Part shown: positions 12,306-33,819 of the stretch, piece by piece | Layout of the letters: the number at the start of each line of letters is the position of its first letter | Numbering within the stretch: position 1 is the stretch's first letter | Assembly (NCBI GenBank): GCA_019751895.1 | Contig: JAIEMU010000046.1 | Coordinates: 1 to 34,765 of the forward strand | Direction: 5' to 3' | Origin: Sphingobacteriaceae bacterium | GTDB taxonomy: Bacteria; Bacteroidota; Bacteroidia; Sphingobacteriales; Sphingobacteriaceae | DNA: 34,765 nt | Translations under genes and position numbers: made by a program | Notes under the pieces: model-generated | Seen by the model: only the letters and a program-made list of their open reading frames with translations | The model's database searches: none | What the model was told of the DNA's origin: nothing

Positions 12306-13340
12306 ATGAAAAATTACACTTTAAAAGTTCAAGATATTCGTAAAGAAACAGAAGACACTATAACGCTATGTTTTAAACAACCGGGATTAAAAAAAATAAA
12401 ATACCAAGCAGGCCAGTATATAACACTTTCTTGTCGAATTAATAATAGAAAGTACAATCGACCTTATTCTTTTTCTTCATCTCCGCTATCTGAAAGTTTT
12501 TTAGAAATTACAATTAAACGTGTTCCGAATGGCCTTTTTTCAAATTATATACATGACACAGTGAAAATTGGTGATGCAATAGAAATAATGGAGCCTATGG
12601 GTGATTTTGTTTTTACGCCTACCGATAATGTTACAACTTTGTTTTTTTGGGGAGTGGGAAGTGGTATTACACCTTTAATTTCCATAATTAAAGAAGTTTT
12701 AATTTCAAATAAACATTTAAATGTTGTTTTAACTTATGGCAACAAAAACCCAGAAACGACTATTTTTTTGGACATATTAAATAATTTACAAAAACAGTAC
12801 GCTTCTCAATTTAAAGTTTTTTATTTCTATTCTCAATGCAAAATTATTGAATCGAAACAAACTAATAGTCACTACGGTAGAATAAGCAATGAATTTATCA
12901 CTACTTTAGTTCAAGATATTAATATTACAGCTACAAATCATTTTATTTGTGGGCCTTTAGCACTTAAAAACACACTTAAAGATATTTTATTGGCTTTAAA
13001 CTGTCCTGAAAGCAATATATTTTCTGAGGATTTTGAGTTGGTAAAAAATCCTAAAGATTTTGAGGATATTGTGTCACAAAATGTACAATTACTATACAAA
13101 GGTGTAACCAGCCAAGTTTTGGTGCCAAAAGGAAAAAGTGTTTTAGAAGCAGCTTTGGATACAGGGCTAGAGTTGCCCTATTCTTGTCAAACGGGTAATT
13201 GTGACACATGTAAAGGTAAATTACATAAAGGTACATTACGTATGATAGGATTATCGAAAAATCGTGACGACTTAAATAATAATGAATTTTTATTGTGTTG
13301 TAGTCATCCTTTGTCTGATAATGTTTTGATAGAAATTTAG
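12306..13340 (+). CDS. FAD/NAD(P)H [2Fe-2S] oxidoreductase, probable E3 partner of RfbH (CDP-6-deoxy-delta-3,4-glucoseen reductase-like) with C-terminal ferredoxin domain
   Basis: FAD-binding RPYSFSSSP. NAD-binding FFWGVGSGITPLISIIKE and FICGPLAL. C-terminal plant-type ferredoxin Cx4Cx2C (PYSCQTGNCDTCKG) plus a distal Cys (LLCCSHP). Adjacent to rfbF/rfbG. Confidence 0.85.
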   Translation: MKNYTLKVQDIRKETEDTITLCFKQPGLKKIKYQAGQYITLSCRINNRKYNRPYSFSSSPLSESFLEITIKRVPNGLFSNYIHDTVKIGDAIEIMEPMGDFVFTPTDNVTTLFFWGVGSGITPLISIIKEVLISNKHLNVVLTYGNKNPETTIFLDILNNLQKQYASQFKVFYFYSQCKIIESKQTNSHYGRISNEFITTLVQDINITATNHFICGPLALKNTLKDILLALNCPESNIFSEDFELVKNPKDFEDIVSQNVQLLYKGVTSQVLVPKGKSVLEAALDTGLELPYSCQTGNCDTCKGKLHKGTLRMIGLSKNRDDLNNNEFLLCCSHPLSDNVLIEI

Positions 13341-13356
13341 ATTTAAAATTTTAAAT

Positions 13357-14136
13357 ATGAAAGTAGTAATTTTTGCAGGTGGTTTTGGTACTCGATTGAT
13401 GGAAGAAACTGAAGCTAGACCTAAACCAATGGTGGAAATAGGAGGCAAACCTATTTTATGGCATGTTTTGAAAATGTACGAACATTATGGTTACAATGAC
13501 TTTGTGATTTGCTTGGGTTATAAAGCTACTTTTATTAAAGAATACTTTTATAATTATTATTTACACAATTCGGACGTAACTATTGAATTGGCGAACAATA
13601 AAGTAGAAGTGCATTATTCCGAATCAGAATCGTTTAAAGTTACTTTAATAGACACGGGTTTAAATACCAATACTGCTGGAAGATTAAAACGTATTGAAAA
13701 ATATGTAAAAGGAGAAACCTTTATGTTGACCTACGGAGACGGTGTATCGAATGTTGATATTAAAGCTCTATTGAAATTTCATAAGCAACATGGTCGTTTG
13801 GCAACCTTAACAAGTGTGCAAGTGCCCGGACGTTTTGGTAATTTAGATATTAATGCTGCGGGAGAAGTAGGTTATTTTGAAGAAAAACCTATGGGAGACG
13901 GCATGTGGATTAATGGTGGTTTCTTTGTTTTGGAACCAGGTATTTTTAAATATTTAGAGGGCGATGTTACTGATATTCAATGGGAAAAAGGACCATTGGC
14001 GGAAATAGCCAAAGACAATCAATTGGCAGCATACAAGCACCATGGATTTTGGAAATGTATGGATGCGCTTAGAGATAGAATTGAATTGGAAGAATTGTGG
14101 AGTTCTGGAAATGCTAAATGGAAAACATGGAAGTAA
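13357..14136 (+). CDS. rfbF: Glucose-1-phosphate cytidylyltransferase
   Basis: MKVVIFAGGFGTRLMEETEARPKPMVEIGGKPILWHVLKMYEHYGYNDFVICLGYK...LTYGDGVSNVDI...GFWKCMDALRDRIELEELW. Confidence 0.96.
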   Translation: MKVVIFAGGFGTRLMEETEARPKPMVEIGGKPILWHVLKMYEHYGYNDFVICLGYKATFIKEYFYNYYLHNSDVTIELANNKVEVHYSESESFKVTLIDTGLNTNTAGRLKRIEKYVKGETFMLTYGDGVSNVDIKALLKFHKQHGRLATLTSVQVPGRFGNLDINAAGEVGYFEEKPMGDGMWINGGFFVLEPGIFKYLEGDVTDIQWEKGPLAEIAKDNQLAAYKHHGFWKCMDALRDRIELEELWSSGNAKWKTWK

Positions 14137-15215
14137 CTACATTTCAAAAGTTAGAAAACACCTATAAAGGAAAAAAAGTTTTTTTAACGGGGCATACGGG
14201 TTTTAAAGGAGCTTGGATGTTAAAAGTATTATCTTTATTAGGTGCAGAAGTAAAAGGCTATGCTTTAGCTCCTTATACTGAAAATGATTTGTATCATTTA
14301 ATTAAAGGAGATGCGCTTTGTGATTCAGTATTAGCCGATTTAAGAAATAAAAAACGATTAGAACAAGAAATACTTGATTTTCAGCCCGATTTTGTATTTC
14401 ATTTGGCAGCGCAGCCTTTGGTGCGCTTGTCTTATGAAATTCCTGCTGAAACTTTTGAAGTCAATGTAATTGGAACTGCCAATGTTTTGGACGCCGTTCG
14501 ATTATTAAATAAAAAATGTGATGTTGTTTTAATCACAACTGATAAAGTATATCATAACAACGAATGGATTTATCCCTATAGAGAAAATGATAGATTGGGC
14601 GGTTACGATCCGTATAGTGCCAGCAAAGCCTGTACAGAATTAGTTATTGACTCGTATCGGAATTCTTTTTTTAATACTAAAACCTATACTTCGCATCAAA
14701 AAGCCATTGCGGTTGCCAGAGCGGGTAATGTGATAGGGGGAGGCGATTGGTCGCAAGATCGTTTGATACCCGATATCGCCAAAGCTTTTGCTTTAGAAAA
14801 ACCTGTAGTGATAAGAAACCCAAATTCTGTTAGACCTTGGCAACATGTTTTGGAACCCGTTGTAGGATATTTATTATTAGGAGCTCATTTAGCCATTGAA
14901 CCTTTGCAATTTAGTCAAGCCTATAATTTTGGACCTCATTTATCCGATGCGCTTCCTGTAGCCGAAATGCTCAAATTAGCCATTGGTAGTTGGGGGAAAG
15001 GGGAATATATAGTAGAACAAACAGAAAAACAACCTCACGAAGCGGGATTGTTGAAATTGGATATTAGCAAAGCGATAAATGAGCTGAAATGGCAACCTAA
15101 AATGAATGCCAAACAAGCTGTTAGTATGACGATGGATTGGTATAGCGAATTTGCTAAGAATAAAGAAAATATTTCTGAGTTTACAACTGAACAGATAAAT
15201 GAGTTTACATCTTAA
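14118..15215 (+). CDS. rfbG: CDP-glucose 4,6-dehydratase
   Basis: GKKVFLTGHTGFKGAWMLKVLSLLGAEVKGYALAP...HLAAQPLVRLSY...VLITTDKVYHNNEW...YDPYSASKACTELV...ARAGNVIGGGDWSQDRLIPDI. Start overlaps rfbF by 19 nt (alternative ATG at 14127). Confidence 0.96.
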   Translation: MENMEVTTFQKLENTYKGKKVFLTGHTGFKGAWMLKVLSLLGAEVKGYALAPYTENDLYHLIKGDALCDSVLADLRNKKRLEQEILDFQPDFVFHLAAQPLVRLSYEIPAETFEVNVIGTANVLDAVRLLNKKCDVVLITTDKVYHNNEWIYPYRENDRLGGYDPYSASKACTELVIDSYRNSFFNTKTYTSHQKAIAVARAGNVIGGGDWSQDRLIPDIAKAFALEKPVVIRNPNSVRPWQHVLEPVVGYLLLGAHLAIEPLQFSQAYNFGPHLSDALPVAEMLKLAIGSWGKGEYIVEQTEKQPHEAGLLKLDISKAINELKWQPKMNAKQAVSMTMDWYSEFAKNKENISEFTTEQINEFTS

Positions 15216-15219
15216 AAAT

Positions 15220-16281
15220 ATGACTACTAATAGTATTATAAAAGAAGATTTAGAAACTATATATAATTCGGATGTCGACTGGTCTAAATTTCAAAATACC
15301 GTGGTTCTTATAACAGGTGCCAATGGTTTTTTGCCAGCTTATCTGGTTGAGTCTTTATTATATCTAAATTTTATTGATCCTAAAAATAATGTTAAAGTTA
15401 TTTGTTTAGTCAGAAATATAGAAAATGCTGAGAGTAGATTTATAGATTATAAACAATGTACTAACTTAGAATTTATAGTTCAAGATGTTTCAGATTCTAT
15501 AAAACTAACAGAAAAAGTTGATTATATAATTCATGCCGCAAGTCAGGCGAGTCCTAAATTTTATGGAACTGACCCTGTCGGAACACTAAAAGCGAATGTT
15601 TTAGGGACTATGAATTTGCTAAACTATGCAAAAGAGAATAAAATAAAATCATTTTTATATTTTAGTTCAGGAGAAGTTTATGGAGAATTAGATTCAGAGC
15701 ATATACCAATAAAAGAAAATACTTTTGGTTATATTAATCCCACAAATGTTAGGTCATGTTATGCAGAGAGCAAGCGTATGGGAGAAAATATATGTGTAAG
15801 TTATCATCATCAATACGGTGTGTCAGTTAAAATTGTCAGACCATTTCATACTTATGGACCTAAAATGAAATTGGATGACGGGAGAGTATATGCTGATTTT
15901 GTCTCGGATATTTTAAATGAAAAAGATATTTGTATGCATAGTGATGGATCTGCGACTAGAGCTTTTTGTTATTTGACTGATGCAACAGTTGGTTTTTTAA
16001 AGATTCTCCTCGATGGAAAAAATGGTGAAGCTTATAATGTGGGAAATCCGAATGAAGAGCATAGCATTTTGGAATTGGCAGAGACCTTAGTTAATTTATA
16101 TCCGGAAAAAGGACTAAAAGTAATTAAACAATTAAATAAAGAGGATAATAATTATTTAAAAAGTCCTTTAAAGAGAAATTCTCCTAATATTAGTAAAATT
16201 AACGAATTAAATTGGCATCCTTTGGTTTCTATTAAAGATGGTTTTAAAAGAACAATTCAAAGTTATGTATCAGGAATATAA
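15220..16281 (+). CDS. NAD-dependent epimerase/dehydratase family protein (extended SDR; UDP-glucuronate decarboxylase-like annotation likely)
   Basis: VVLITGANGFLPAYLVESLLYL nucleotide-binding motif with a Pro at the third Gly position. Catalytic YAESK, RPFHTYGP and YNVGNP motifs. The ORF track starts at 15199; ATG 15220 just after the rfbG stop is more likely. Confidence 0.88.
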   Translation: MTTNSIIKEDLETIYNSDVDWSKFQNTVVLITGANGFLPAYLVESLLYLNFIDPKNNVKVICLVRNIENAESRFIDYKQCTNLEFIVQDVSDSIKLTEKVDYIIHAASQASPKFYGTDPVGTLKANVLGTMNLLNYAKENKIKSFLYFSSGEVYGELDSEHIPIKENTFGYINPTNVRSCYAESKRMGENICVSYHHQYGVSVKIVRPFHTYGPKMKLDDGRVYADFVSDILNEKDICMHSDGSATRAFCYLTDATVGFLKILLDGKNGEAYNVGNPNEEHSILELAETLVNLYPEKGLKVIKQLNKEDNNYLKSPLKRNSPNISKINELNWHPLVSIKDGFKRTIQSYVSGI

Positions 16282-16292
16282 AAAAAGCACTA

Positions 16293-18128
16293 ATGAAAAA
16301 CAGTATAAAAGTAAGTGATTTAATAGCGGACTTCTTAATAGAAAAAGAAATAAAACACGTTTTTGGAATTATAGGAGCTGGTAATGCTCATATTTTCGAT
16401 TCGATACAACAGAAAGGATATACAGAAATAATTTGTGTACATCATGAGCAAGCGGCTTGTATGGCGATGCAAACTTATTATAGAACTACTGGTAAAGTTA
16501 CAGCTGCTTTACTTACAACAGGGGCTGGCTCTACAAATGGAATTACTGGTGTTGTAAGTGCTTGGGCAGATTCGATTCCTGGAATTGTCATTTCAGGAAA
16601 CGAACATTCAAAATACGTTGATTCGCATAAAGATTTAAGAATGTGGGGGGTACAAGGGTACGATAGTCCTGCTATGGTAGAAAAAGTTACTAAATATGCC
16701 ATGCAGACTTCAAATCCCAATACAGTTGTATATGAATTAGAAAAAGCGTATTCAATTGCAACGCATGGGAGACCAGGCCCTTGTTGGATTGATGTGCCTA
16801 TGAATTTGCAATCCACTAATATACAAAAGGAAGAGGTTGTCCATTTTATAGATTCAGAATTGCCAGATTTGAATTTAGATTCTGAAAATGATTTATCCAA
16901 TAGTATTGATTCTATTGTGGAGGCTTTAAAAACAGCCAAACGTCCATTGTTTTGGTTGGGTAATGGTATAAGATTGGCTGGAGCAGAAAAATTGTTAGAG
17001 CCACTATTAGAAAAATACAATATTCCGGCACTTGTTACTTGGGCTGGTATAGACGCAATAGATTCTTATCATCCTTTGGTTTTTGGACGAGCAGGAACTT
17101 ATGGACAAAGATGTGCTAATTTTATACTTCAAAATTGCGATTTATTGATTTGTATAGGAACCAGAATGGCAATTTCTCAAATAGGCTATGATATTACTGA
17201 GCTTGCCAGAGAAGCCGATATTGCTGTTGTGGACATCGATAAATTTGAATTGGATAAATATAAAGAAAGATATAAGTATTCAATAAATGCTGATGCAGGG
17301 AAGTTTATCAAAGGATTGTTGGATAAAGAAATAAATGAATCTTTAAATTTTTCTAATTGGCTTGAAAATTGTAATAAATACAGAAAAGATTATCCGTGGG
17401 TAAATGAAAGAGACCATTCAGATAAAGATGGTTTTATTAATTCATATCAATTCATGGAAAAATTAAATACTTATTTTAAAGAAGATCAACATGTAACCAC
17501 TGATATGGGTACAGCTCTTTTGAGTGGTCACCAAGTTTTGAAAATAGGAAAGAATCAAAGATTAATGACCTCTACAGGCTTGGGTGAAATGGGCTATGGA
17601 TTGCCAGCAGCAATTGGGGTTTCTGTTGCCAGAAATAAGGGTGAAGTGATGTGCTTGAATTGTGACGGGGGTATGATGATGAACTTACAAGAACTACAAA
17701 CGGTAGTACATTATAAGTTACCTGTGAAATTATTTATTTTTAATAATGATGGTTATTTGATGATTAAGAATACTCAAAATGCATTGTTTAACGGTAGAAG
17801 AGCAGGTGTAGATTCTAGTTCAGGAGTAACGTGTCCTGATTTTAGTGCATTGGCAACTGCTTTTGGAATGCCTTCTTTTCAGATTAAAACATGGGAAGAA
17901 TTCGATGAAGTTATACCAAAAGTACAAGAAATTGAAGGTCCTGTAATTTGTGAGGTTTTTATGCATCCACATCAGTTGTTTGTACCTAAACTGGGATTGG
18001 TAGCGCAAAGTGATGGAACTTTGATTTCTCCACCCTTAGAGGACTTGTCACCTTTTATTCCAAGAGAAGAATTGAAAAGGAATATGTTAAACGGATTGCA
18101 TCCTAAATCAAATAAGATTGAAGCTTAA
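16293..18128 (+). CDS. Thiamine diphosphate-dependent enzyme, acetolactate synthase/YerE-like
   Basis: N-terminal Pyr domain with catalytic Glu (IICVHHEQAACMAMQTYYRTTGKVTAALLTTGAGSTNGITG). Central domain GNGIRLAGAEKLLEPLL. PP domain TSTGLGEMGYGLPAAIG...NCDGGMMMNLQELQTVVHYKLPVKLFIFNNDGY. Confidence 0.92.
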   Translation: MKNSIKVSDLIADFLIEKEIKHVFGIIGAGNAHIFDSIQQKGYTEIICVHHEQAACMAMQTYYRTTGKVTAALLTTGAGSTNGITGVVSAWADSIPGIVISGNEHSKYVDSHKDLRMWGVQGYDSPAMVEKVTKYAMQTSNPNTVVYELEKAYSIATHGRPGPCWIDVPMNLQSTNIQKEEVVHFIDSELPDLNLDSENDLSNSIDSIVEALKTAKRPLFWLGNGIRLAGAEKLLEPLLEKYNIPALVTWAGIDAIDSYHPLVFGRAGTYGQRCANFILQNCDLLICIGTRMAISQIGYDITELAREADIAVVDIDKFELDKYKERYKYSINADAGKFIKGLLDKEINESLNFSNWLENCNKYRKDYPWVNERDHSDKDGFINSYQFMEKLNTYFKEDQHVTTDMGTALLSGHQVLKIGKNQRLMTSTGLGEMGYGLPAAIGVSVARNKGEVMCLNCDGGMMMNLQELQTVVHYKLPVKLFIFNNDGYLMIKNTQNALFNGRRAGVDSSSGVTCPDFSALATAFGMPSFQIKTWEEFDEVIPKVQEIEGPVICEVFMHPHQLFVPKLGLVAQSDGTLISPPLEDLSPFIPREELKRNMLNGLHPKSNKIEA

Positions 18129-18136
18129 TAGAAAAC

Positions 18137-19012
18137 ATGAAAAAACTTAGAGTAGCCATATTAGGCAGTGGAAATATAGGAACAGATTTATTAATTAAAA
18201 TCCAACGTTCCGAATTTTTAGAATGTGTTTTATTTATCGGAAGAAATTTGTCTTCACCAGGGATGGCGAAAGCCATTGCTATGGGGGTAAAAGTTTCAGA
18301 CGAAAGCATCAATGCTATTGTAAAAAATCCAGATGCAGTTGATTTGATTTTTGATGCCACTTCGGCAAAAGATGCAAAGATACATTGGGAGGTTTTAGAT
18401 AAATTAGGAAAAATAGTGGTAGATATGACTCCTGCTAAATTAGGCGTTTTCTGCATTCCGGCTGTAAATTTAGATGAAGTTTTGGAACACAGAAATGTGA
18501 ATATGATTACCTGCGGAGGACAAGCTTCAATACCAATTGCTTATGTTATTGGCAAAACACAAAAAAACGTGGAATATATTGAAGTAGTATCAAGTATAGC
18601 TTCAAGAAGTGCTGGGCCTGCAACAAGGCTTAATTTAGATGAATATATTGACACCACCGAAAATGGAATTAAGCACTTTTCTAAAGTGCCTAGAACAAAA
18701 GCGATTCTGAATTTGAATCCTGCTGATCCTTGCATTGATATGCAAACAACTATATTTGCTCAAGTAGAAAATCCAGATATGGATTCTTTATTATACGAAG
18801 TAGATATTATGGTGAAAAAAATACAAGAGTATGTGCCAGGATATAGTTTGTTAGTTCCTCCCATTTTTGAAAATGGTAGAATTGTAATTATGGTTAAAGC
18901 ACAAGGATTAGGGGATTACTTACCTAAATATGCAGGGAATTTGGATATTATAAACTGTGCTGCAATTGCAGTTGCAGAACAATATTCGAAAAATTTTAAC
19001 AACATTAAATAG
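18137..19012 (+). CDS. Acetaldehyde dehydrogenase (acylating), MhpF/DmpF-like
   Basis: RVAILGSGNIGTDLLIKI Rossmann motif. Catalytic-Cys segment NMITCGGQASIPIAYVI. SIASRSAGPATRLNLDEYIDTT. Followed directly by the aldolase. Confidence 0.93.
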   Translation: MKKLRVAILGSGNIGTDLLIKIQRSEFLECVLFIGRNLSSPGMAKAIAMGVKVSDESINAIVKNPDAVDLIFDATSAKDAKIHWEVLDKLGKIVVDMTPAKLGVFCIPAVNLDEVLEHRNVNMITCGGQASIPIAYVIGKTQKNVEYIEVVSSIASRSAGPATRLNLDEYIDTTENGIKHFSKVPRTKAILNLNPADPCIDMQTTIFAQVENPDMDSLLYEVDIMVKKIQEYVPGYSLLVPPIFENGRIVIMVKAQGLGDYLPKYAGNLDIINCAAIAVAEQYSKNFNNIK

Positions 19013-19019
19013 TAATTTC

Positions 19020-20030
19020 ATGATTAAGCAAATATTAATTAGTGACCCTACATTGCGTGATGGAAATCATGCTTGTGCACATCAATTGAGTCTTGAGCAA
19101 ATAGCTATTTATGCAGCAGCGGCTGATAAAGCAGGTGTTCCCATTGTGGAGGTTGGTCATGGAAATGGTTTAGGAGCTTCTTCGCTCCAAGTTGGTCTAT
19201 GCAAAGAAACCGACAAAGATATGCTTGAAACTGCAAGAAAGCATCTTAGCAAAAGTAAGTTAGGAATTCATGTAATTCCAGGCTTTGCAACCATAAAAAG
19301 AGATTTAATTAGAGCGATAGACATAGGTGTTGACGTGATTCGAATTGCATCACATTGTACGGAGGCTGACATTACGCAACGTCATTTAGGATACGTAAGA
19401 GAAAGAGGTAAAGAAGCTTATGGTGTATTGATGATGAGTCATATGGCATCAGCAACGGTTTTGGTTGAAGAAGCCCAAAAAATGGAGTTGTATGGAGCAG
19501 AAGGAATTATAATAATGGATTCTGCAGGAGCTTATTTACCATCTGATGTTCAAGAAAAGGTTACTGCGCTAGTAAACGGATTGAAAGTACCAGTGGGTTT
19601 TCATGCGCATAATAACTTGGGAATGGCTGTGGCGAATTCAATTACAGCTATAGAATCTGGAGCTAAAATCCTTGATGGTACAGCAAGAGGTTTTGGAGCA
19701 GGTGCAGGGAATACACAATTAGAGGTTTTGGTTGCTGTTTTGGAGAAAATGGGTTATGTAACGGGTATTGATTTGTATAAAATGTTAGATGCATCAGATA
19801 TAGCCGAAGATAAAATAATGAAAAATGTTCCGATTATAAAATCGGAAAGTATCATAAGCGGATTATCTGGAGTATTTTCTGGTTTTGCAAAACATGTTAC
19901 AAGAATTTCAAGTGAATATAAAGTTGATCCAAGAGATGTATATCGTGAATTGGGTAAAAGAAAAATCGTTGGAGGGCAAGAGGATATGATTATTGAGGTA
20001 GTTATGGATTTAATTAGAAATCGAAAATAA
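19020..20030 (+). CDS. 4-hydroxy-2-oxovalerate aldolase, MhpE/DmpG-like
   Basis: ISDPTLRDGNHACAHQLSLEQIAIYAAAADKAGVPIVEVGHGNGLGASS, VGFHAHNNLGMAVANS and the C-terminal communication-domain-like YKVDPRDVYRELGKRKIVGGQEDMIIEVVMDL. The track start at 18957 overlaps the upstream gene; ATG 19020 gives the canonical N-terminus MIKQILISDPTLRDG. Confidence 0.94.
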   Translation: MIKQILISDPTLRDGNHACAHQLSLEQIAIYAAAADKAGVPIVEVGHGNGLGASSLQVGLCKETDKDMLETARKHLSKSKLGIHVIPGFATIKRDLIRAIDIGVDVIRIASHCTEADITQRHLGYVRERGKEAYGVLMMSHMASATVLVEEAQKMELYGAEGIIIMDSAGAYLPSDVQEKVTALVNGLKVPVGFHAHNNLGMAVANSITAIESGAKILDGTARGFGAGAGNTQLEVLVAVLEKMGYVTGIDLYKMLDASDIAEDKIMKNVPIIKSESIISGLSGVFSGFAKHVTRISSEYKVDPRDVYRELGKRKIVGGQEDMIIEVVMDLIRNRK

Positions 20031-21079
20031 TGAAATTAGCTAAAAATAAAGTTGTATTCGAGGATTGTAAAAAATCATGTACAGAAATTGAATGTTTTTC
20101 AATTTTAGACAATCAATCGATTCTTGTAACTGGAGGTACTGGTTTTATGGGAAAATGGATTGCTGAAATGGTTTCTTATATTAATGAAACGGGTAATTAC
20201 AATATAAAATTATATTTATTAGGACGTGATATAAGTAAATTTAAAGAAGAGGTTCCGCATTTAGCAGAAAAACCATTTGTTAGTCTAATTAAGCAGGATG
20301 TTAGGTATCTTCATAATTTACCGAGTGATGTAAATTATATTATTCATGCCGCAGGAACACCTGATAATAGGGAACATGTTTCTAATCCTTTGAAAACAAT
20401 TGAAACATTCTACAAAGGAACTCAATCAGTCTTGGATGCAGCAACACGGTTAACCGATTTAAGAAAGGTAGTGCATTTGAGTTCTCATCAGGTTTATGGG
20501 AAAAACGAAACCGAACAATTCATAAATGAAAATGCATTTGGAGCTTTTGAAGCTTTAAATGTAGCTTCTTGTTATGCCGAAGCGAAAAGAATAGCCGAAA
20601 CTTTATGTTCTCACTATAAGAATAGTATGAGATTGCCCATTGTCATTTTAAGGCCTTTTGCTTTCATAGGCCCTTATCAAGATTTAGAAAAGCCTTGGGC
20701 AATTAACAGCTTTATTAGAGATGCTATGTTAGGAGGACCGATTCGTGTGTTGGGTAATGGATTAACGCAAAGAAGTTATTTGTATGCTAGCGACATGGCT
20801 TATTGTATTTTATTGTCATTAATTAAAGGCGAAAATGGGGGCATTTATAATTTTGGAAGTAAAGTTGGCATATCGTTAAATGATTTGGCAATTAAAATAC
20901 AAAATCAATCGGTATCAAAAATTGAAATTTTATCTAGATCATCGAAAGATTTCGACAATGTTTCTAAGTTAGTACCCAATACCGATAAAATAACTAGACA
21001 ATTAAATTTTAAAGAAACAATCACGCTTGATAAAGCAATTGAAAGAACAATATTGTGGAATCAATTAAATAACGACTAA
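20030..21079 (+). CDS. NAD-dependent epimerase/dehydratase family protein (extended SDR), related to the 15220-16281 product
   Basis: ILVTGGTGFMGKWIAEMV (GxxGxxG), catalytic YAEAK, VILRPFAFIGP, YNFGSK. Overlaps the aldolase stop by 1 nt. Confidence 0.88.
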   Translation: MKLAKNKVVFEDCKKSCTEIECFSILDNQSILVTGGTGFMGKWIAEMVSYINETGNYNIKLYLLGRDISKFKEEVPHLAEKPFVSLIKQDVRYLHNLPSDVNYIIHAAGTPDNREHVSNPLKTIETFYKGTQSVLDAATRLTDLRKVVHLSSHQVYGKNETEQFINENAFGAFEALNVASCYAEAKRIAETLCSHYKNSMRLPIVILRPFAFIGPYQDLEKPWAINSFIRDAMLGGPIRVLGNGLTQRSYLYASDMAYCILLSLIKGENGGIYNFGSKVGISLNDLAIKIQNQSVSKIEILSRSSKDFDNVSKLVPNTDKITRQLNFKETITLDKAIERTILWNQLNND

Positions 21080-21082
21080 AAA

Positions 21083-22021
21083 ATGAATATTAAGAATATT
21101 AAAGATAAATTTTCAAAAAATGAAATCAATAAAGCTAATTTTGTTGCTGCAATGCATGAGTTTCACATGGCGCTTTTTGAATTTTCTAAAAATTTAAGCG
21201 ACACAGAAATTGAAAAAATTGAAATTGAAGATAATAAAGTTATTTTTACTTCACGTAAAACAAAATTCCATCCAGGAGGGGTTAAATTTTATGTAGATTG
21301 CTTAGATAAAAGAATTACACCAATAGAAGCTTTTAATTTCAATTATTATGAGCAGGAAGAGTCTGAAATGCTTTATAATCTTGTAGGTAATGATGAAGTG
21401 ATTTTTGATATTGGTGCAAATATTGGATGGTATTCTAATCATTTATCAAAGAAATTGCCAAACAGTTTGATTTATGCTTTTGAGCCTATTCCTGAAACTT
21501 TTGAACAGATTTCTAAAAATACGCAATTAAATAAGGCCATTAATATTAAATTGAATAATGTTGCTTTATCCGATAAAGTTCAAAAACTATCTTTTTTTTA
21601 TTCTCCTAACATAACTGGTGCATCATCATCGGTTAACATCACAGAGAACGAAAATATGTTAAAGTTAGAGTGCCAAACCAATACAATTGATCTTTTTATA
21701 AAAGAACAAAATATTTCTAAACTTGATTTTATAAAATGTGATGTGGAAGGAGCTGAATTATTGGTTTACAAAGGAGGTGCTGAAAGTATTGAAAAGTATA
21801 AGCCTATAGTTTTTACTGAGATGTTAAGAAAATGGGCATTGAAATTTGATTATCATCCAAACGATATAATTGATTTTTTTACCAAATTAGGATACAAGTG
21901 TTTTGTTGCTTCAGAAGGTAGATTGAAATCTATAGAAAAGGTAACGGATGATACAATTGAGACAAACTTCTTCTTTTTACATTCAAATAAACATGCAGAT
22001 AAAATAAAAAATTTAAGTTAA
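21083..22021 (+). CDS. FkbM family methyltransferase
   Basis: [46 protein letters not shown]...[19 protein letters not shown]. Confidence 0.9.
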
Positions 22022-22022
22022 C

Positions 22023-23327
22023 ATGTTACAAAACATTACAGATGCTACACTTTTGAATAGTTTAAGAGAAATAGCCAAGAAAAACTCAACACAGGTAATC
22101 GTACCTGGCGAAAACTATATACCCGTTACCGGGAAAGTATTGGATGCAGAGGATATTTTAATGGGAGTGGATGCAGCTTTAGATGGCTGGCTTACTGCAG
22201 GTCGTTTTGCTTCAAAATTTGAAACAGATTTTGCAGCATATTTTGGAGCGCACAGAGCGTTATTAGTAAATTCAGGATCATCGGCGAATTTGGTTGCTTT
22301 TTATGCTTTGACCTCTCCGAAATTAGGAGAACGTGCCATCAAACCAGGAGACGAAGTAATTACGGTTGCAGCAGGTTTTCCAACAACTATAAACCCAATC
22401 ATTCAGTTTGGAGCGATACCTGTTTTTATAGATGTGGATATTGCCACGCATAATGTAAAAGCCGATATGCTAGAGGCAGCAGTAAGCCCAAAAACCAAAG
22501 CCATTATGATTGCACACTCCTTGGGTAATCCTTTTGATTTGGATGAGGTAATGCGTGTTGCTAAGAAATACAATCTTTGGGTTGTTGAGGATGATTGTGA
22601 TTCTTTGGGAGCAACCTATAAAGGACAAAAAACAGGAACTTTTGGTGATATATCTACTTTCTCGTTCTATCCAGCGCATCATATCACCATGGGTGAAGGT
22701 GGAGCTGTTTTAATTAATAATCCAGTTTTATCCAAACTAGCTGAAAGTTTCCGTGACTGGGGACGTGATTGTTATTGTGAGCCAGGGAAAGACAATACTT
22801 GTGGCTGTCGTTTCGGGCAACAATTAGGAACTTTACCATATGGGTATGACCATAAATATACGTATTCGCATATTGGTTTCAACTTAAAAGTAACCGATAT
22901 GCAGGCTGCTTTTGGTGTGTCTCAAATTAAAAAGATAGACGGATTTGTACAAAGACGTAGAGAAAATTACGTTGCTTTGTACGAACGTATGAAAGAGTTT
23001 GAAGAAGTGTTTATTTTACCAGAACCAACACCGAATTCTGATCCTTCTTGGTTTGGTTTTTTATTAACACTTAGAGAGGGTGATGCTGCCGACAGACACA
23101 TGTTGGTGCAACATTTGGAAGAAAAGAAAATTGGAACTCGTTTGTTGTTTGGCGGTAATTTATTGCGCCAGCCTGCTTATGCCAATATTGAGCACAGAGT
23201 AGTTGGTGATTTGACGAATACTGATGCCATTATGAATCAATCGTTTTGGTTGGGGGTTTGGCCGGGATTGAATGAAACGCATTATGATTATATTGCGGAT
23301 GTGATTAGAGAATATTTAAACTCTTGA
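22023..23327 (+). CDS. rfbH: CDP-4-dehydro-6-deoxyglucose-3-dehydrase (E1), RfbH
   Basis: Aspartate-aminotransferase fold with His in place of the PLP lysine ([19 protein letters not shown], His219-His220). Cys-rich insert [17 protein letters not shown] (22770-22808) expected for the [2Fe-2S] cluster. Confidence 0.96.
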
Positions 23328-23328
23328 T

Positions 23329-24699
23329 GTGCTAAAACTAATAAAAAAAGGGTCTAACAAAATAGGAATAGACGGCGCTATAGCTTTCACTGTATTGTCG
23401 AGAGTTATTCAAGCTGCTGGTGGCGTTGTAACATTGTTGTTCGTGGCAAAATGCTTGACCAAAGTGGAACAGGGATATTATTATACTTTTGGGAGTATTT
23501 TGGCAATACAAATCTTCTTTGAGTTGGGTTTATCTAGTATTATAACACAGTTTGTGGCACATGAAAATGCCAATTTAATGTGGCACGACCGAATACGTTT
23601 TACAGGCTCGGAAGAATCGAGTTCAAGATTAGCATCCTTATTACGGTTTACAGTAAAATGGTTTACAGTTATTTCAGTATTGCTGTTTTTTTGTTTACTT
23701 ATAGCTGGGTATGTGTTTTTTAGTACATACGGAAAAGGGAATGTTGATGTCAATTGGCATATTCCATGGGTAATTCTATCCGTTACAACTTCTCTTTCGT
23801 TGATGGTTTCGCCAATATTAGCCTTTTTTGAAGGACTGGGGTCGGTAAAAGAAGTGTCAAGAATTCGAATGATACAACAAATCATACAGCTTAGTTTTGT
23901 GCTGATTTTGTTTTCTTTGGATTTTAAGCTTTTTTCTGTACCAGTCGCCGCAGTTGTTTCTTTTTCGATAGTGCCTTTTTGGATTTTTTTCGGAAAGAAA
24001 AGGAAATTGTTGACTTTTATTTGGAATAAAATAGGAAATTGGCATGTTAATTATCGTTTGGAAATTTTTCCTTATCAATGGAAAATAGCTTTAAGCTGGA
24101 TTAGTGGGTATTTTATTTTTCAATTGTTTAATCCTGTTCTCTTTGCTACCGAAGGACCTGTCGTAGCAGGACAAATGGGAATGACATTAGCGATTTTAAA
24201 TGCCATTTTGATGCTTACTTTGAGTTGGGTGAGTACTAAGGTTCCTATTTTTTCGGGATTAATTGCCAAAAAAGAATATGTACAATTGGATTACTTGTTT
24301 AATAAAACTGTAATACAATCTACCTTGTTAAATATTTTTGCGCTAACTGTTTTTTTTACCCTAATTTTTATATTGCGTTCTTATGATATCAAAATAGCAG
24401 GAAAGAGTTTTTGGGATCGATTTTTGCCTCTTTTGCCCATGCTATTTATGATGATTCCAGTTTTGTTAAATCATGTGATAGCAGCTTGGGCGACTTACCT
24501 CCGTTGCCATAAAAAAGAGCCTATGATGATTCAGAGTATTGTTATCGGGATTCTTTGTTCTATTTCAACAATCACTTTAGGAAAGTATTTTGGCGTGATA
24601 GGAATGACTTTAGGGTACATGATATTGACAGTTATAGGTTTTATTTGGACTTATTTTATTTTTACAACTAAGAAAAAAGAATGGCATAATGAAGGTTAA
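23329..24699 (+). CDS. O-antigen flippase (Wzx-like), multi-TM membrane protein
   Basis: About 12 hydrophobic segments. GTG start directly after rfbH. GAIAFTVLSRVIQAAGGVVTLLFVAKCLTKVEQGYYYTFGSILAIQIFFELGLSSIITQFVAHE resembles polysaccharide flippases. Confidence 0.85.
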   Translation: MLKLIKKGSNKIGIDGAIAFTVLSRVIQAAGGVVTLLFVAKCLTKVEQGYYYTFGSILAIQIFFELGLSSIITQFVAHENANLMWHDRIRFTGSEESSSRLASLLRFTVKWFTVISVLLFFCLLIAGYVFFSTYGKGNVDVNWHIPWVILSVTTSLSLMVSPILAFFEGLGSVKEVSRIRMIQQIIQLSFVLILFSLDFKLFSVPVAAVVSFSIVPFWIFFGKKRKLLTFIWNKIGNWHVNYRLEIFPYQWKIALSWISGYFIFQLFNPVLFATEGPVVAGQMGMTLAILNAILMLTLSWVSTKVPIFSGLIAKKEYVQLDYLFNKTVIQSTLLNIFALTVFFTLIFILRSYDIKIAGKSFWDRFLPLLPMLFMMIPVLLNHVIAAWATYLRCHKKEPMMIQSIVIGILCSISTITLGKYFGVIGMTLGYMILTVIGFIWTYFIFTTKKKEWHNEG

Positions 24700-29468: not shown

Positions 29469-30503
29469 ATGAAAATACAAAATAAAACACTTTTAATTAC
29501 CGGCGGCACAGGTTCTTTTGGGCATGCTGTGCTCAATCGTTTTTTACTTACAGATCATTTTTCTGAAATTAGAATTTTTTCTCGTGATGAGAAAAAACAA
29601 GACGACATGCGCATTCAACTCAACAACGACAAACTGAAATTTTATATCGGTGATGTGCGAGATTACAACAGTGTGGAAAGGGCTATGCGTGGGGTAGATT
29701 ATGTGTTTCATGCGGCGGCCTTAAAACAAGTGCCTTCTTGTGAGTTTTTTCCTTTGGAGGCAGCCAAAACCAATGTTTTTGGTACGCAAAATGTAATTGA
29801 TGCGGCGGTAGTGAACAAGGTCAATAAAGTAATTTGTTTGAGCACCGACAAAGCTGCCTACCCAATCAATGCAATGGGAATTTCGAAAGCCTTGATGGAA
29901 AAAGTGGCGGTAGCGGCGTCTAGAAATTTGAAAGATACCACTGTATGTCTGACTCGTTATGGAAATGTAATGGCCTCAAGAGGCTCAGTTATCCCTTTGT
30001 TTTTAAAACAAATTAAAGAAGGTAATCCCATCACCATCACCGACCCCAACATGACCCGTTTTTTAATGTCCTTGGACGAAGCCGTAGAGTTGGTGCTTTT
30101 TGCTTTTGAACACGGTAATCCTGGAGATTTATTTGTAAACAAAGCGCCGGCGGGCACCATTGGTGATTTGGCACAAGCCTTGAAAGAATTGTGCAATGTC
30201 GATACGGAAATAAAAATTATAGGCACCCGCCATGGCGAAAAGTTATACGAAACCTTATGTACGCGTGAAGAAATGCAAAAAGCGGAAGACATGGGTGATT
30301 TTTACAGAATACCTGCCGATAACCGTGATTTGAATTATGCGCAGTATTTTTCAGAAGGCGAAGTAGCGGTGGCTAAAATAGAAGATTACCATTCGCACAA
30401 CACCGAGCAACAAGATGTGGAGGGAATGAAAAAATTATTGTCTAATTTGCCTTTGATCCGCAAAGAAGTGTTTGGTGAAAATGTGGCTCAAATGCCAGGT
30501 TAG
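29469..30503 (+). CDS. capE: UDP-N-acetylglucosamine 4,6-dehydratase/5-epimerase (CapE/WbjB-like)
   Basis: KTLLITGGTGSFGHAVLNRFL...IRIFSRDEKKQDDMRIQL...FHAAALKQVPSCEFFPLEAAKTNVFGTQNVIDAA...STDKAAYPINAMGISKALMEKV. Confidence 0.93.
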   Translation: MKIQNKTLLITGGTGSFGHAVLNRFLLTDHFSEIRIFSRDEKKQDDMRIQLNNDKLKFYIGDVRDYNSVERAMRGVDYVFHAAALKQVPSCEFFPLEAAKTNVFGTQNVIDAAVVNKVNKVICLSTDKAAYPINAMGISKALMEKVAVAASRNLKDTTVCLTRYGNVMASRGSVIPLFLKQIKEGNPITITDPNMTRFLMSLDEAVELVLFAFEHGNPGDLFVNKAPAGTIGDLAQALKELCNVDTEIKIIGTRHGEKLYETLCTREEMQKAEDMGDFYRIPADNRDLNYAQYFSEGEVAVAKIEDYHSHNTEQQDVEGMKKLLSNLPLIRKEVFGENVAQMPG

Positions 30504-30514
30504 ATTTCAAATGA

Positions 30515-30946
30515 ATGGAAGACAAAAAAACACCTCAACTGTTAAAAGGCGGCCTTCACTCAGACCATAGAGGCGAATTGCGCTACAACAATTTGTTTGA
30601 TGCTGCAGACATTAGAAGGATGTATGTAATCGAGAATAAAGACACCGATTTGGTTAGGGCTTGGCAAGGACATCGTATCGAACAACGCTGGTTTAGCGCC
30701 ATACAAGGTAGGTTCAAAATTCAATTGATAGCGATTGACAATTGGGAAAATACGCCAAAAAATTTAAAGCCCATCACTTTTGAATTAAATGCAACTACTT
30801 TTGATGTGCTTTATGTACCCAATGGATATGCAAACAGTGTGCAAGCACTAGACGAAAATGCAAAACTTTTGGTGATGGCAGATCATCCCCTTGGAACCAA
30901 GGGTGATGAGTATCGCTATGCAACGGATTATTTTGTAAATGAATAG
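30515..30946 (+). CDS. Small cupin / sugar epimerase-like protein (dTDP-4-dehydrorhamnose 3,5-epimerase- or WxcM-like)
   Basis: GGLHSDHRGELRYNNLFD...RAWQGHRIEQRWFSAIQGRFKIQLIAID...FDVLYVPNGYANSVQALDENAKLLVMADHPLG. Confidence 0.8.
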   Translation: MEDKKTPQLLKGGLHSDHRGELRYNNLFDAADIRRMYVIENKDTDLVRAWQGHRIEQRWFSAIQGRFKIQLIAIDNWENTPKNLKPITFELNATTFDVLYVPNGYANSVQALDENAKLLVMADHPLGTKGDEYRYATDYFVNE

Positions 30947-30981
30947 AAAATTTATTTCCTTTAAGTTGATTATTTTAAATT

Positions 30982-32100
30982 ATGATTAAAATTGGTGTAA
31001 CGGGGCAGTCGGGTTTTGTAGGTTCACATTTATACAATACAATAGCTTTATTTGCAAATGAATTTGAAAGCGTTCCTTTCGATAAAGATTTTTTTACAGA
31101 CGAATCTAAGCTGAACGCATTTGTTGCCCAATGTGATGTGATTGTACATTTAGCAGCAATGAATCGCAATCAAGATCCGCAAGTAATTTATGATACGAAC
31201 ATTTTATTGGTTCAAAAATTAATAAAATCATTAGAAGTAAGTCAATCAAAAGCACATGTGATATTTTCATCTTCTACCCAAGAAAACAATAATAATTTAT
31301 ACGGAAATTCTAAAAAAGAAGGCCGTGAGTTGATGCAATCTTGGGCAGAAAAATCAGGAGGTAAATTTACGGGGATGGTTATTCCCAACGTTTTTGGTCC
31401 TTTTGGTCAGCCAAACTACAATTCAGTTGTGGCTACTTTTTGTTATCAATTGGCAAATCATCAAACACCAAGCATAGATGTAGATGCTAACATTAAATTG
31501 ATTTATGTGGGCGAATTGGTTGAATTTATCCTTTCTGAAATTAGAAACAACAAAGGAAACACCCAATTGCAGGTAGCGCATAGCTCCGAAATTAAAGTGT
31601 CAGAATTGTTGAAATTACTGCAAAACTTTAAACACGAATATCAAGACAAAGGCAATATTCCAACGTTACAAACTAATTTTGAGCTTAATTTGTTCAATAC
31701 CTATCGTTGCTACATGGACATCAAAAATCATTTTCCTGTGAAATTTGTGCAACACATCGATAACAGAGGTATGTTTATGGAAATAATAAGGTTAGGCGTT
31801 GGTGGACAAGTGTCACTTTCAACCACAGCCCCAAACATCACCAGAGGAAATCATTTTCATACTCGAAAAATAGAAAGGTTTGCCGTAATTAAAGGCAAAG
31901 CATTGATTCAATTAAGACGTATTGGAACAAATGAAGTGTTAGATTTTTATTTAGATGGAGATAACCCATCCTATGTAGATATGCCCATTTGGTACACGCA
32001 CAACATTAAGAATATTGGAGAAGATGTTTTATACACTAATTTCTGGATTAATGAGTGTTACGATCCTAAAGATGGGGATACTTATTTTGAGAATGTATAA
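30982..32100 (+). CDS. capF: CapF-like bifunctional SDR reductase with C-terminal cupin (UDP-2-acetamido-2,6-dideoxy-hexulose reductase)
   Basis: IGVTGQSGFVGSHL SDR domain. Cupin QHIDNRGMFMEIIRLGVGGQVSLSTTAPNITRGNHFHTRKIERFAVIKGKALIQLRRIGTNEVLDFYLDG...PIWYTHNIKNIGEDVLYTNFWINE. Confidence 0.93.
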   Translation: MIKIGVTGQSGFVGSHLYNTIALFANEFESVPFDKDFFTDESKLNAFVAQCDVIVHLAAMNRNQDPQVIYDTNILLVQKLIKSLEVSQSKAHVIFSSSTQENNNNLYGNSKKEGRELMQSWAEKSGGKFTGMVIPNVFGPFGQPNYNSVVATFCYQLANHQTPSIDVDANIKLIYVGELVEFILSEIRNNKGNTQLQVAHSSEIKVSELLKLLQNFKHEYQDKGNIPTLQTNFELNLFNTYRCYMDIKNHFPVKFVQHIDNRGMFMEIIRLGVGGQVSLSTTAPNITRGNHFHTRKIERFAVIKGKALIQLRRIGTNEVLDFYLDGDNPSYVDMPIWYTHNIKNIGEDVLYTNFWINECYDPKDGDTYFENV

Positions 32101-32102
32101 AA

Positions 32103-32133
32103 ATTTCACGCAGATATCGCTGATTTTCGCAGA
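32103..32133 (+). repeat. Left arm of an inverted repeat flanking the GxxExxY gene
   Basis: ATTTCACGCAGATATCGCTGATTTTCGCAGA. 27 of 31 positions match the reverse complement of 32637-32667. Confidence 0.85.
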
Positions 32134-32190
32134 AAAAGATAAAGTGAATTTTCAGATTAAAGTTTAGTGTTTTTTGATGATTCAAAAATA

Positions 32191-32208
32191 ATTTCACGTT
32201 GATATTTG
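32191..32208 (+). repeat. Degenerate partial copy of the left arm (direct orientation)
   Basis: ATTTCACGTTGATATTTG shares ATTTCACG--GATAT with ATTTCACGCAGATAT at 32103. Confidence 0.45.
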
Positions 32209-32239
32209 TAATTTTATCAGAAGATAATATTGAACTATA

Positions 32240-32620
32240 ATGGAAGAAAATGATATTACCTATAAAATCAGGGGGTGTATATTTGCAGTTTATAATCACC
32301 TTGGACCTGGCTTACTTGAGTCAATTTATGAATCAGCTTTGCTTTACGAACTTAAAAAGTGTAATCTTGTAGTCAAAAATCAAGCTCCACTCCCAGTTTT
32401 ATACGATGGTGTTAAATTAGTAGAGGTTGGATTTAGGCTAGATATATTAGTTGAGGAAAAAGTAATTGTTGAAATAAAATCAGTTGAGGATCTATCTAAA
32501 TTGCATTTTAAACAATTGCTTACCTATATGAAGTTGTCAGAAAAAAAAGTTGGAATATTAGTTAATTTTAACTGCGAAAATATTCAAGAAAATATAAAAA
32601 GAATTGTAAAAGATTTTTAA
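32240..32620 (+). CDS. GxxExxY family protein (PD-(D/E)XK nuclease-like, PDDEXK_3)
   Basis: YNHLGPGLLESIYESALLYELKK (GPGLLESIY) and VGFRLDILVEEKVIVEIKSVEDLSKLHFKQLLTYMKL, with D/E-x-K-type residues. Confidence 0.93.
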   Translation: MEENDITYKIRGCIFAVYNHLGPGLLESIYESALLYELKKCNLVVKNQAPLPVLYDGVKLVEVGFRLDILVEEKVIVEIKSVEDLSKLHFKQLLTYMKLSEKKVGILVNFNCENIQENIKRIVKDF

Positions 32621-32636
32621 AGTAATAAAAAAACAA

Positions 32637-32667
32637 TCTGCGTAAATCTGCGCAATCTGCGTGAAAT
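32637..32667 (-). repeat. Right arm of the inverted repeat flanking the GxxExxY gene
   Basis: The + strand reads TCTGCGTAAATCTGCGCAATCTGCGTGAAAT. Its reverse complement ATTTCACGCAGATTGCGCAGATTTACGCAGA matches 32103-32133 with 4 mismatches. Confidence 0.85.
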
Positions 32668-32676
32668 ACAAATAAA

Positions 32677-33819
32677 ATGAAAACAAAACTAAAAGTAATG
32701 ACCGTCGTGGGTACACGACCAGAAATTATAAGATTGGCAAGAGTAATGGCGGCTTTAGATGCTTCTGATGCGATAGAACACATCATTGTGCATACAGGTC
32801 AAAATTATGATTACGAATTAAATCAAATATTTTTTGATGATTTAGGGATTCGTAAACCAGATTTTTTTCTAGATGCAGCAGGTGCAACGGCTATCGAAAC
32901 AGTAGGACAAATTTTAATTAAAATTGACCCTTTGTTGCTAAGCGAAAAACCAGATGCCTTTTTAGTTTTGGGCGATACCAATAGTTGTTTATGTGCTATT
33001 CCTGCCAAAAAAAGACACATTCCTATTTTTCATATGGAGGCAGGAAATCGTTGTTTCGACCAAAGAGTACCTGAAGAAACCAATCGTAAAATAGTAGATC
33101 ATGTGTCGGATGTGAATTTGACTTATAGCGACATCGCAAGAGAATACCTGTTGAAAGAAGGACTTCCTGCCGATAGAATTATCAAAACAGGATCGCCTAT
33201 GTTTGAAGTGTTAAACCATTACTTGCCTTCAATTTCAGCATCCGCTATTTTAGAAAAATTGAATTTAACCAAGCATAAATACTTTGTAGTTTCTGCACAC
33301 AGAGAGGAAAATATCAGTAGCGACAAAAATTTCAAAAATTTGATGGACAGTTTGAATTTAGTTGCCGAAAAATATAAATATCCAATCATTGTGAGCACCC
33401 ACCCACGTACCCAAAAGATGATTGATGTCAAGCAAATCGCTATGCGACCAGAAGTTCAATTCTTAAAACCAATGGGTTTTAATGATTACAATGCTTTACA
33501 AATGCATGCTTATGCTGTTTTATCAGACAGTGGAACGATTTCTGAAGAATCATCAATTTTAAATTTTCCTGCCTTAAACATTCGTGAAGCACACGAACGC
33601 CCAGAAGCGATGGAAGAAGCCTCAGTAATGATGGTGGGACTAAATCCAGAAAGAATTATGCAGGCTTTAACCGAATTGCAAACGCAAAAAAGAGGCGCAG
33701 AACGCAATTTTAGACCCGTAGCCGATTATTCGATGCCAAATGTATCGCAAAAAATGGTGCGCATTATTTTGAGTTATACCGATTATGTAAAAAGAGTAGT
33801 TTGGAGAGAGGAAAATTAA
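32677..33819 (+). CDS. capG: UDP-N-acetylglucosamine 2-epimerase family (CapG/WbjD-like)
   Basis: KVMTVVGTRPEIIRLARVMAALD...VHTGQNYDYELNQIFFDDLGIRKPDFFL...LGDTNSCLCAIPAKKRHIPIFHMEAGNRCFDQRVPEETNRKIVDHVSDVNLTYSDIAREYL...SDSGTISEESSILNFPALNIREAHERPEAME. Confidence 0.93.
   Translation: MKTKLKVMTVVGTRPEIIRLARVMAALDASDAIEHIIVHTGQNYDYELNQIFFDDLGIRKPDFFLDAAGATAIETVGQILIKIDPLLLSEKPDAFLVLGDTNSCLCAIPAKKRHIPIFHMEAGNRCFDQRVPEETNRKIVDHVSDVNLTYSDIAREYLLKEGLPADRIIKTGSPMFEVLNHYLPSISASAILEKLNLTKHKYFVVSAHREENISSDKNFKNLMDSLNLVAEKYKYPIIVSTHPRTQKMIDVKQIAMRPEVQFLKPMGFNDYNALQMHAYAVLSDSGTISEESSILNFPALNIREAHERPEAMEEASVMMVGLNPERIMQALTELQTQKRGAERNFRPVADYSMPNVSQKMVRIILSYTDYVKRVVWREEN

Follow-up and report, generated by a model that had tools for sequence, protein, structure and literature searches.

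Two described systems stand closest to the locus reported here. JanthE, from Janthinobacterium sp. HH01, accepts short to long 2-oxoacids, including 4-hydroxy-2-oxovalerate with benzaldehyde, and takes pyruvate in vitro, while its physiological substrates are reported as not identified (PMC12188165). Erwiniose, in turn, is a ten-carbon sugar (PMC8657720), and according to a review an in silico search found more than 200 YerE-like clusters. Here we consider ten genes at positions 12306-23327 of a window – by which we mean the whole 34,765-nucleotide stretch analysed – from a Sphingobacteriaceae bacterium (GenBank assembly GCA_019751895.1, contig JAIEMU010000046.1). We put at roughly 0.74 the probability that this operon makes a cytidine diphosphate (CDP)-activated, C4-branched, ten-carbon 3,6-dideoxy sugar, similar to erwiniose and destined for a surface polysaccharide, with 4-hydroxy-2-oxopentanoate as the donor. 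The type of enzyme at its centre is known, but to our knowledge the route to its building block has not previously been worked out.

The ten open reading frames form a complete run on the (+) strand, each at the coordinates given for it earlier, in the order reductase, RfbF, RfbG, a first short-chain dehydrogenase/reductase (SDR-A), a thiamine diphosphate (ThDP) enzyme, MhpF, MhpE, SDR-B, an FkbM-family methyltransferase and RfbH. The successive intergenic gaps are +16, -19, -17, +11, +8, +7, -1, +3 and +1 bases. Genes were assigned with NCBIfam models at their curated cut-offs, passed by six of the ten, and with Pfam domains; the tightly packed, unidirectional run noticed in a preliminary description of this DNA is thereby confirmed.

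The central gene (16293-18128) encodes a ThDP-dependent carboligase. Among solved structures it is closest to 8rph (849 bits), with 5ahk next at 258 bits. The former is identified from its sequence as JanthE, because it carries the CDG motif and the active-site residues published for JanthE (V121, Y268, P293, Y297 and K567) fit its numbering; the latter we take, from its relation to YerE-type operons, to be PpYerE. The window enzyme shares 61.3% identity with JanthE over the full length and 29.0% with PpYerE. It contains the CDG motif (NCDGG), the cysteine of which is present in 78 of 78 relatives, while the same position is glycine in YerE-type and other sugar-cluster enzymes. In the tree a branch supported at 100 (Shimodaira–Hasegawa-like approximate likelihood ratio test) sets the window enzyme, JanthE and the relatives apart, with a single change of label; motif and common descent alike place the window enzyme in the JanthE (CDG) clade. 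That a ThDP enzyme of the decarboxylase superfamily, akin to a ketone-coupling YerE-like enzyme, lies next to rfbFGH also marks the locus as a probable YerE-like cluster for a C4-branched sugar. The enzyme is nevertheless not YerE proper, which uses pyruvate and bears GDG: identity to PpYerE is 29%, the motif is CDG and the two lie on opposite sides of the supported branch. Nor is it an acetolactate synthase, because its score falls under the curated cut-off (TIGR00118, 363 bits against 538 required). Searches of plasmids and phages with the protein returned matches at about 30% only, mostly annotated as acetolactate synthase or unannotated.

The case for a longer donor begins with the genes that accompany this enzyme. 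A scan of genome contigs with the ThDP sequence gave 93 relatives, 80 of which were fetched and used for gene counts; since the search started from the ThDP sequence of the window itself, it favours close relatives, and the loci counted cannot be treated as independent events. Across the 80 loci, which are spread over 12 phyla, MhpF is present in 73, MhpE in 72, SDR-B in 69, RfbH in 64, RfbF in 61 and RfbG in 58, followed by SDR-A (35), FkbM (17) and a reductase of the window type (14). Of the 54 loci whose flanks exceed 5 kb in each direction, 52 have MhpF and MhpE together and 50 have RfbF, RfbG and RfbH, bearing out the co-occurrence of rfbFGH, ThDP enzyme and MhpE/MhpF for which the preliminary description had called for a search. 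Dozens of unrelated genomes have the same set, and the arrangement is therefore not due to chance.

MhpF (18137-19012), an acetylating acetaldehyde dehydrogenase (TIGR03215, 376 bits; cut-off 282) with the TCGGQ cysteine at residue 126, has PDB relatives 7z3s and 1nvm_B. MhpE (19020-20030), a 4-hydroxy-2-oxovalerate aldolase (TIGR03217, 390 bits; cut-off 286), scores 271 bits to DmpG (1nvm). Having R17, D18, H21, H200 and H202, a DmpG_comm domain and an adjoining acetylating dehydrogenase with its catalytic cysteine, the two constitute a DmpFG-type pair. In the reverse direction DmpFG and BphIJ convert acetyl-coenzyme A (acetyl-CoA) to acetaldehyde, which is then joined to pyruvate to give 4-hydroxy-2-oxopentanoate. 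A role for the window pair in aromatic catabolism was rejected: meta-cleavage genes do not adjoin it, and its residues are unlike those of catabolic members.

When 76 cassette aldolases (72 relatives, the window and three further cassettes) are aligned to DmpG, R17, D18, H21, H200 and H202 are invariant and all 76 carry the replacements L88H and Y291F (DmpG numbering), whereas control aldolases outside cassettes have tyrosine in 31 of 31 cases and leucine in 30 of 31, with isoleucine in one. Only eight alignment columns separate the two sets so cleanly, positions 88 and 291 among them. The window aldolase does not carry the 4S-specific signature of DmpG and BphI (Leu88 and Tyr291; 87 and 290 in BphI). 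In BphI, Y290F abolishes stereocontrol, and either L87N/Y290F or L87W/Y290F changes it from 4S to 4R (PMC3962088, PMC4012138). On the strength of His88 and Phe291 the cassette MhpE is predicted to be 4R-selective and to provide a 4R donor.

Signature and carboligase are also associated when the comparison starts from the aldolase. In 369 class-level genomes there are three His/Phe aldolases, all with a CDG-type ThDP enzyme in the locus (for the third, L148, the longer locus L021 shows this). The 24 Leu/Tyr or Ile/Tyr aldolases of these genomes lack a ThDP gene over a distance of about 1.5 kb. In 386 genomes of the phylum, the two His/Phe aldolases (that of the window and that of G1133) both belong to cassettes, and the three Leu/Tyr ones lie outside them. 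The window's own genome has just one other HMGL-like gene, a frame of 510 residues, and a second DmpG-type aldolase was not seen there. That the whole cassette clade – 80 loci in 12 phyla – has naturally stereo-inverted aldolases making 4R-hydroxy-2-oxopentanoate solely for CDG-type ThDP enzymes and sugars of the ten-carbon erwiniose type is a proposition for which we judge the odds to be even.

Genomes of the window's own genus provide a natural control. A CDG-type ThDP enzyme was found in none of the 36 others searched. Five of them have an operon of reductase, rfbF, rfbG, SDR, YerE and rfbH, with an RfbH 86-90% identical to that of the window; the carboligases of all five group with PpYerE in the tree, that of L108, for example, scoring 476 bits to PpYerE against 256 to JanthE. 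These same five genomes lack a DmpG-type aldolase, the best matches reaching only 27-29%. The window looks like a sister-type operon that has received SDR-A, ThDP enzyme, MhpF, MhpE, SDR-B and FkbM in place of the SDR-YerE block. On this view the acceptor should be unchanged and the donor should differ.

One alternative is that the product is of the yersiniose type, the ThDP enzyme moving a two-carbon unit from pyruvate while MhpE and MhpF serve otherwise, for example in the handling of acetaldehyde. JanthE does accept pyruvate in vitro (PMC12188165), and the five sister genomes place a YerE operon between the same flanking rfb genes. Yet those five have no DmpG-type aldolase, the window carboligase belongs to a different clade with different active-site residues, all cassette aldolases share the specialised residues and the linkage of MhpF and MhpE to the CDG clade extends to 52 of 54 loci, within 80 loci over 12 phyla. 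We therefore regard a yersiniose-type product as unlikely.

Under the erwiniose-like reading the acceptor would come from four genes. A flavin adenine dinucleotide/nicotinamide adenine dinucleotide/[2Fe-2S] (FAD/NAD/[2Fe-2S]) reductase (12306-13340; Pfam FAD_binding_6, NAD_binding_1 and Fer2) is the presumed electron donor of RfbH, in the E3 role. Its domain order is FAD-NAD-[2Fe-2S], the [2Fe-2S] domain being C-terminal, and it is 51-58% identical to the reductases at the matching place in the sister yersiniose-type operons; in a Pseudomonas cassette (L024) the reductase at the equivalent position has, by contrast, [2Fe-2S] first. RfbF, a glucose-1-phosphate cytidylyltransferase (13357-14136; TIGR02623, 388 bits, cut-off 300), RfbG, a CDP-glucose 4,6-dehydratase (14118-15215; TIGR02622, 470 bits, cut-off 278), and RfbH (E1), a CDP-4-keto-6-deoxyglucose 3-dehydrase (22023-23327; NF011936, 706 bits, cut-off 423), are together what the supply of CDP-4-keto-3,6-dideoxyglucose is expected to need. 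RfbH conserves His220 and Cys193, Cys251, Cys253 and Cys261 of the Yersinia E1 (3bcx), which we take to be, respectively, the residue of a pyridoxamine phosphate dehydrase and the four ligands of the [2Fe-2S] cluster.

We infer the direction of MhpE and MhpF, the donor and its stereochemistry, the product and the roles of SDR-A, SDR-B and FkbM, and the steps would run as follows. RfbF and then RfbG would produce CDP-4-keto-6-deoxyglucose, from which RfbH and the reductase would take off the C3 hydroxyl to leave CDP-4-keto-3,6-dideoxyglucose. MhpF would reduce acetyl-CoA to acetaldehyde and pass it on to MhpE, which would combine it with pyruvate into 4-hydroxy-2-oxopentanoate, probably 4R. The ThDP enzyme would decarboxylate this compound and attach what remains, a four-carbon 3-hydroxybutanoyl unit, to the CDP-sugar at its C4 ketone; SDR-B, or else SDR-A, would reduce the branch ketone to give a 4-C-(1,3-dihydroxybutyl)-3,6-dideoxyhexose, that is, erwiniose or a stereoisomer, and SDR-A and FkbM may tailor it further. 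The preliminary description had already proposed an RfbFGH-derived acceptor, ThDP carboligation, a longer 2-oxoacid donor from MhpE and MhpF and a product larger than yersiniose, of about ten carbons. The linkage, the sister genomes lacking a DmpG-type aldolase, the conserved residues and the published donor ranges of ErwE and JanthE all favour that proposal.

Among the late enzymes SDR-B (20030-21079), an extended SDR, is the best candidate for a YerF-like reduction of the branch ketone, because it is the commonest partner (69 of 80), keeps YxxxK and has lost the acid pair of the dehydratases, the Asp-Glu being replaced (SSHQVY). SDR-A (15199-16281; YxxxK, SSGEVY motif), also an extended SDR, is the second candidate and a possible tailoring reductase or epimerase. 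The PDB matches of both are generic – UDP-glucuronate decarboxylase and sugar dehydratases – and do not fix the step. The FkbM-family protein (21083-22021; TIGR01444, 107 bits, cut-off 38) may O-methylate the sugar, an optional step since it is present in just 17 of the 80 relatives.

These genes could instead indicate two sugars, SDR-A and FkbM leading to an unbranched (methylated) 3,6-dideoxyhexose and the ThDP enzyme, MhpE, MhpF and SDR-B to a branched one. This is improbable: SDR-A and FkbM do stand beside rfbFGH without ThDP enzyme or MhpE/MhpF in L169 and L171, but in both a split transketolase adjoins them, making C-branching likely there too, and in the window they lie inside the same operon as the branching genes. 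The arrangement in L169 and L171 suggests rather a general tailoring of C4-branched sugars.

That MhpF and MhpE start from propionyl-CoA or another acyl-CoA, longer or functionalised, and yield a caryophyllose-like sugar of eleven or more carbons is very unlikely, for although BphI-type aldolases take several aldehydes (PMC3962088) and ErwE also accepts 4-hydroxy-2-oxohexanoate, MhpF exceeds the cut-off of an acetylating model and the equivalent of BphI Leu-89, whose shrinking admits long aldehydes, is still bulky in the cassette aldolases (Ile in 61, Met in 11), which favours acetaldehyde. Extension of the branch itself, the alternative role offered for the pair in the preliminary description, found no support because the branch offers a pyruvate aldolase no aldehyde, and the comparison made there with caryophyllose gives way to erwiniose (C10) as the closest known sugar.

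Several points weigh against the erwiniose-like reading. It is built on gene identities, cassette linkage and conserved catalytic residues, and since JanthE takes pyruvate as well, the ThDP enzyme does not by itself fix the donor. The 4R pairs of BphI are Asn or Trp with Phe, whereas the cassette pair is His with Phe. In the most divergent CDG-type loci, L062 and L069 (51-52%), which are the exceptions among the well-flanked loci, a split transketolase replaces MhpF and MhpE beside RfbH and the ThDP enzyme, and L023 has RfbH and the ThDP enzyme without MhpF or MhpE within 4.6 kb of downstream sequence. A different SDR occupies the place beside the ThDP gene in Pseudomonas L022 and L024, and the roles given to SDR-A and SDR-B are tentative. 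Finally, the likeness to erwiniose comes from published descriptions of ErwE.

The operon is flanked by a polysaccharide locus containing WbsX and other glycosyltransferases, an EpsG/Wzy-like protein and nucleotide-sugar genes. Immediately downstream lies a probable Wzx flippase (23329-24699, + strand), a name we infer because its product matched no Pfam family; in sister locus L110 the gene after rfbH encodes what looks like its orthologue. At 29469-33819 a Polysacc_synt_2 dehydratase, a WxcM-like gene, an epimerase with Polysacc_synt_C and a UDP-GlcNAc 2-epimerase-like gene resemble a set for UDP-L-FucNAc, inside which sits a PDDEXK_3 gene (32240-32620).

Other arrangements were seen among the loci collected. 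Pseudomonas L024 (8212-14757) has YerE-type and CDG-type ThDP enzymes in tandem, followed by an SDR, MhpF and MhpE. In L173 (2074-8328), L121 (8312-13304) and L115 (2403-8488), rfbFGH and a ThDP enzyme (34-37% identical) lie near a NeuB/SpsE-like synthase, NeuB being confirmed by Pfam in L173 only; the synthase could provide an ulosonic acid as a longer donor, the same logic being carried out with another donor module. L165 (6238-10553) has rfbFGH and a ThDP enzyme (37%) adjoining a class I aminotransferase, which perhaps makes a 2-oxoacid donor out of an amino acid. L169 (8959-14148) and L171 (8933-13913) combine rfbFGH, a split transketolase pair, SDR-A and FkbM but have no ThDP enzyme of the decarboxylase type; their branch is probably hydroxyacyl (a two-carbon ketol).

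Tertiary alcohols can be made with JanthE, a biocatalyst that has been crystallised, and its conserved MhpF and MhpE partners name a candidate natural donor. If the proposition on stereo-inverted aldolases in the whole clade is true, the physiological donor of JanthE would be identified, and a catabolic enzyme pair would have been reversed and re-tuned for sugar building. To judge by the aldolase signature, a switch of the kind engineered in BphI is already in natural use, and cassette members may be a source of 4R-hydroxy-2-oxoacids. Erwiniose-type ten-carbon sugars, reported so far from few plant-pathogen strains, may also be widespread in environmental bacteria, including cultured groups (Flavobacterium, Pedobacter, Mucilaginibacter, Pseudomonas and Oxalobacteraceae); Flavobacterium hercynium DSM 18292, for instance, bears the cassette. 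Since JanthE and erwiniose were already known, the claim to novelty is weaker than first supposed; the apparent novelty lies in how nearly universally the CDG clade is linked to MhpF and MhpE, together with the His/Phe signature of the aldolase.

Compared with catabolic DmpFG, BphIJ and MhpEF pairs, the window pair shares families scored over cut-off, catalytic residues and the DmpG_comm domain, but differs in having no meta-cleavage neighbours and in the change, common to all cassette members, of Leu-87/Tyr-290 to His/Phe. With YerE/YerF of Yersinia pseudotuberculosis (yersiniose A) and the sister operons the window operon has in common the RfbFGH acceptor, ThDP carboligation and subsequent reduction by an SDR; YerE, however, uses pyruvate to make a two-carbon branch and an eight-carbon sugar, has the GDG motif and is without MhpE and MhpF. 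The likeness to ErwE and erwiniose of Pectobacterium atrosepticum extends to the predicted donor 4-hydroxy-2-oxopentanoate, the acceptor and the ten-carbon type of product. Erwiniose is 3,6,8-trideoxy-4-C-(1-hydroxyethyl)-D-gulo-octose; read inversely, this is a 3,6-dideoxyhexose bearing 1,3-dihydroxybutyl as its branch, as a 4-hydroxy-2-oxopentanoate donor would give, and with the D-gulo configuration C7 would be R, in agreement with the 4R prediction. The Pectobacterium ErwE locus was not found in the class and order genome samples, which did not reach the genus (best 16S 85-87% to E. coli). A review calls the CDG of JanthE unique against the canonical GDG, and by implication ErwE falls in a different clade. 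The closest system remains that of JanthE itself. The window enzyme keeps Val121, Tyr268, Tyr297 and Lys567, with serine in place of JanthE Pro293, and the gene set, for which the preliminary description knew no characterised pathway, is not unique but that of the JanthE cluster type: L033 of Rugamonas rivuli has a ThDP enzyme with 99% identity to JanthE and carries nine of the window's ten genes, all except the reductase, in the different order RfbF-RfbG-RfbH-ThDP-MhpF-MhpE-SDR-B-SDR-A-FkbM.

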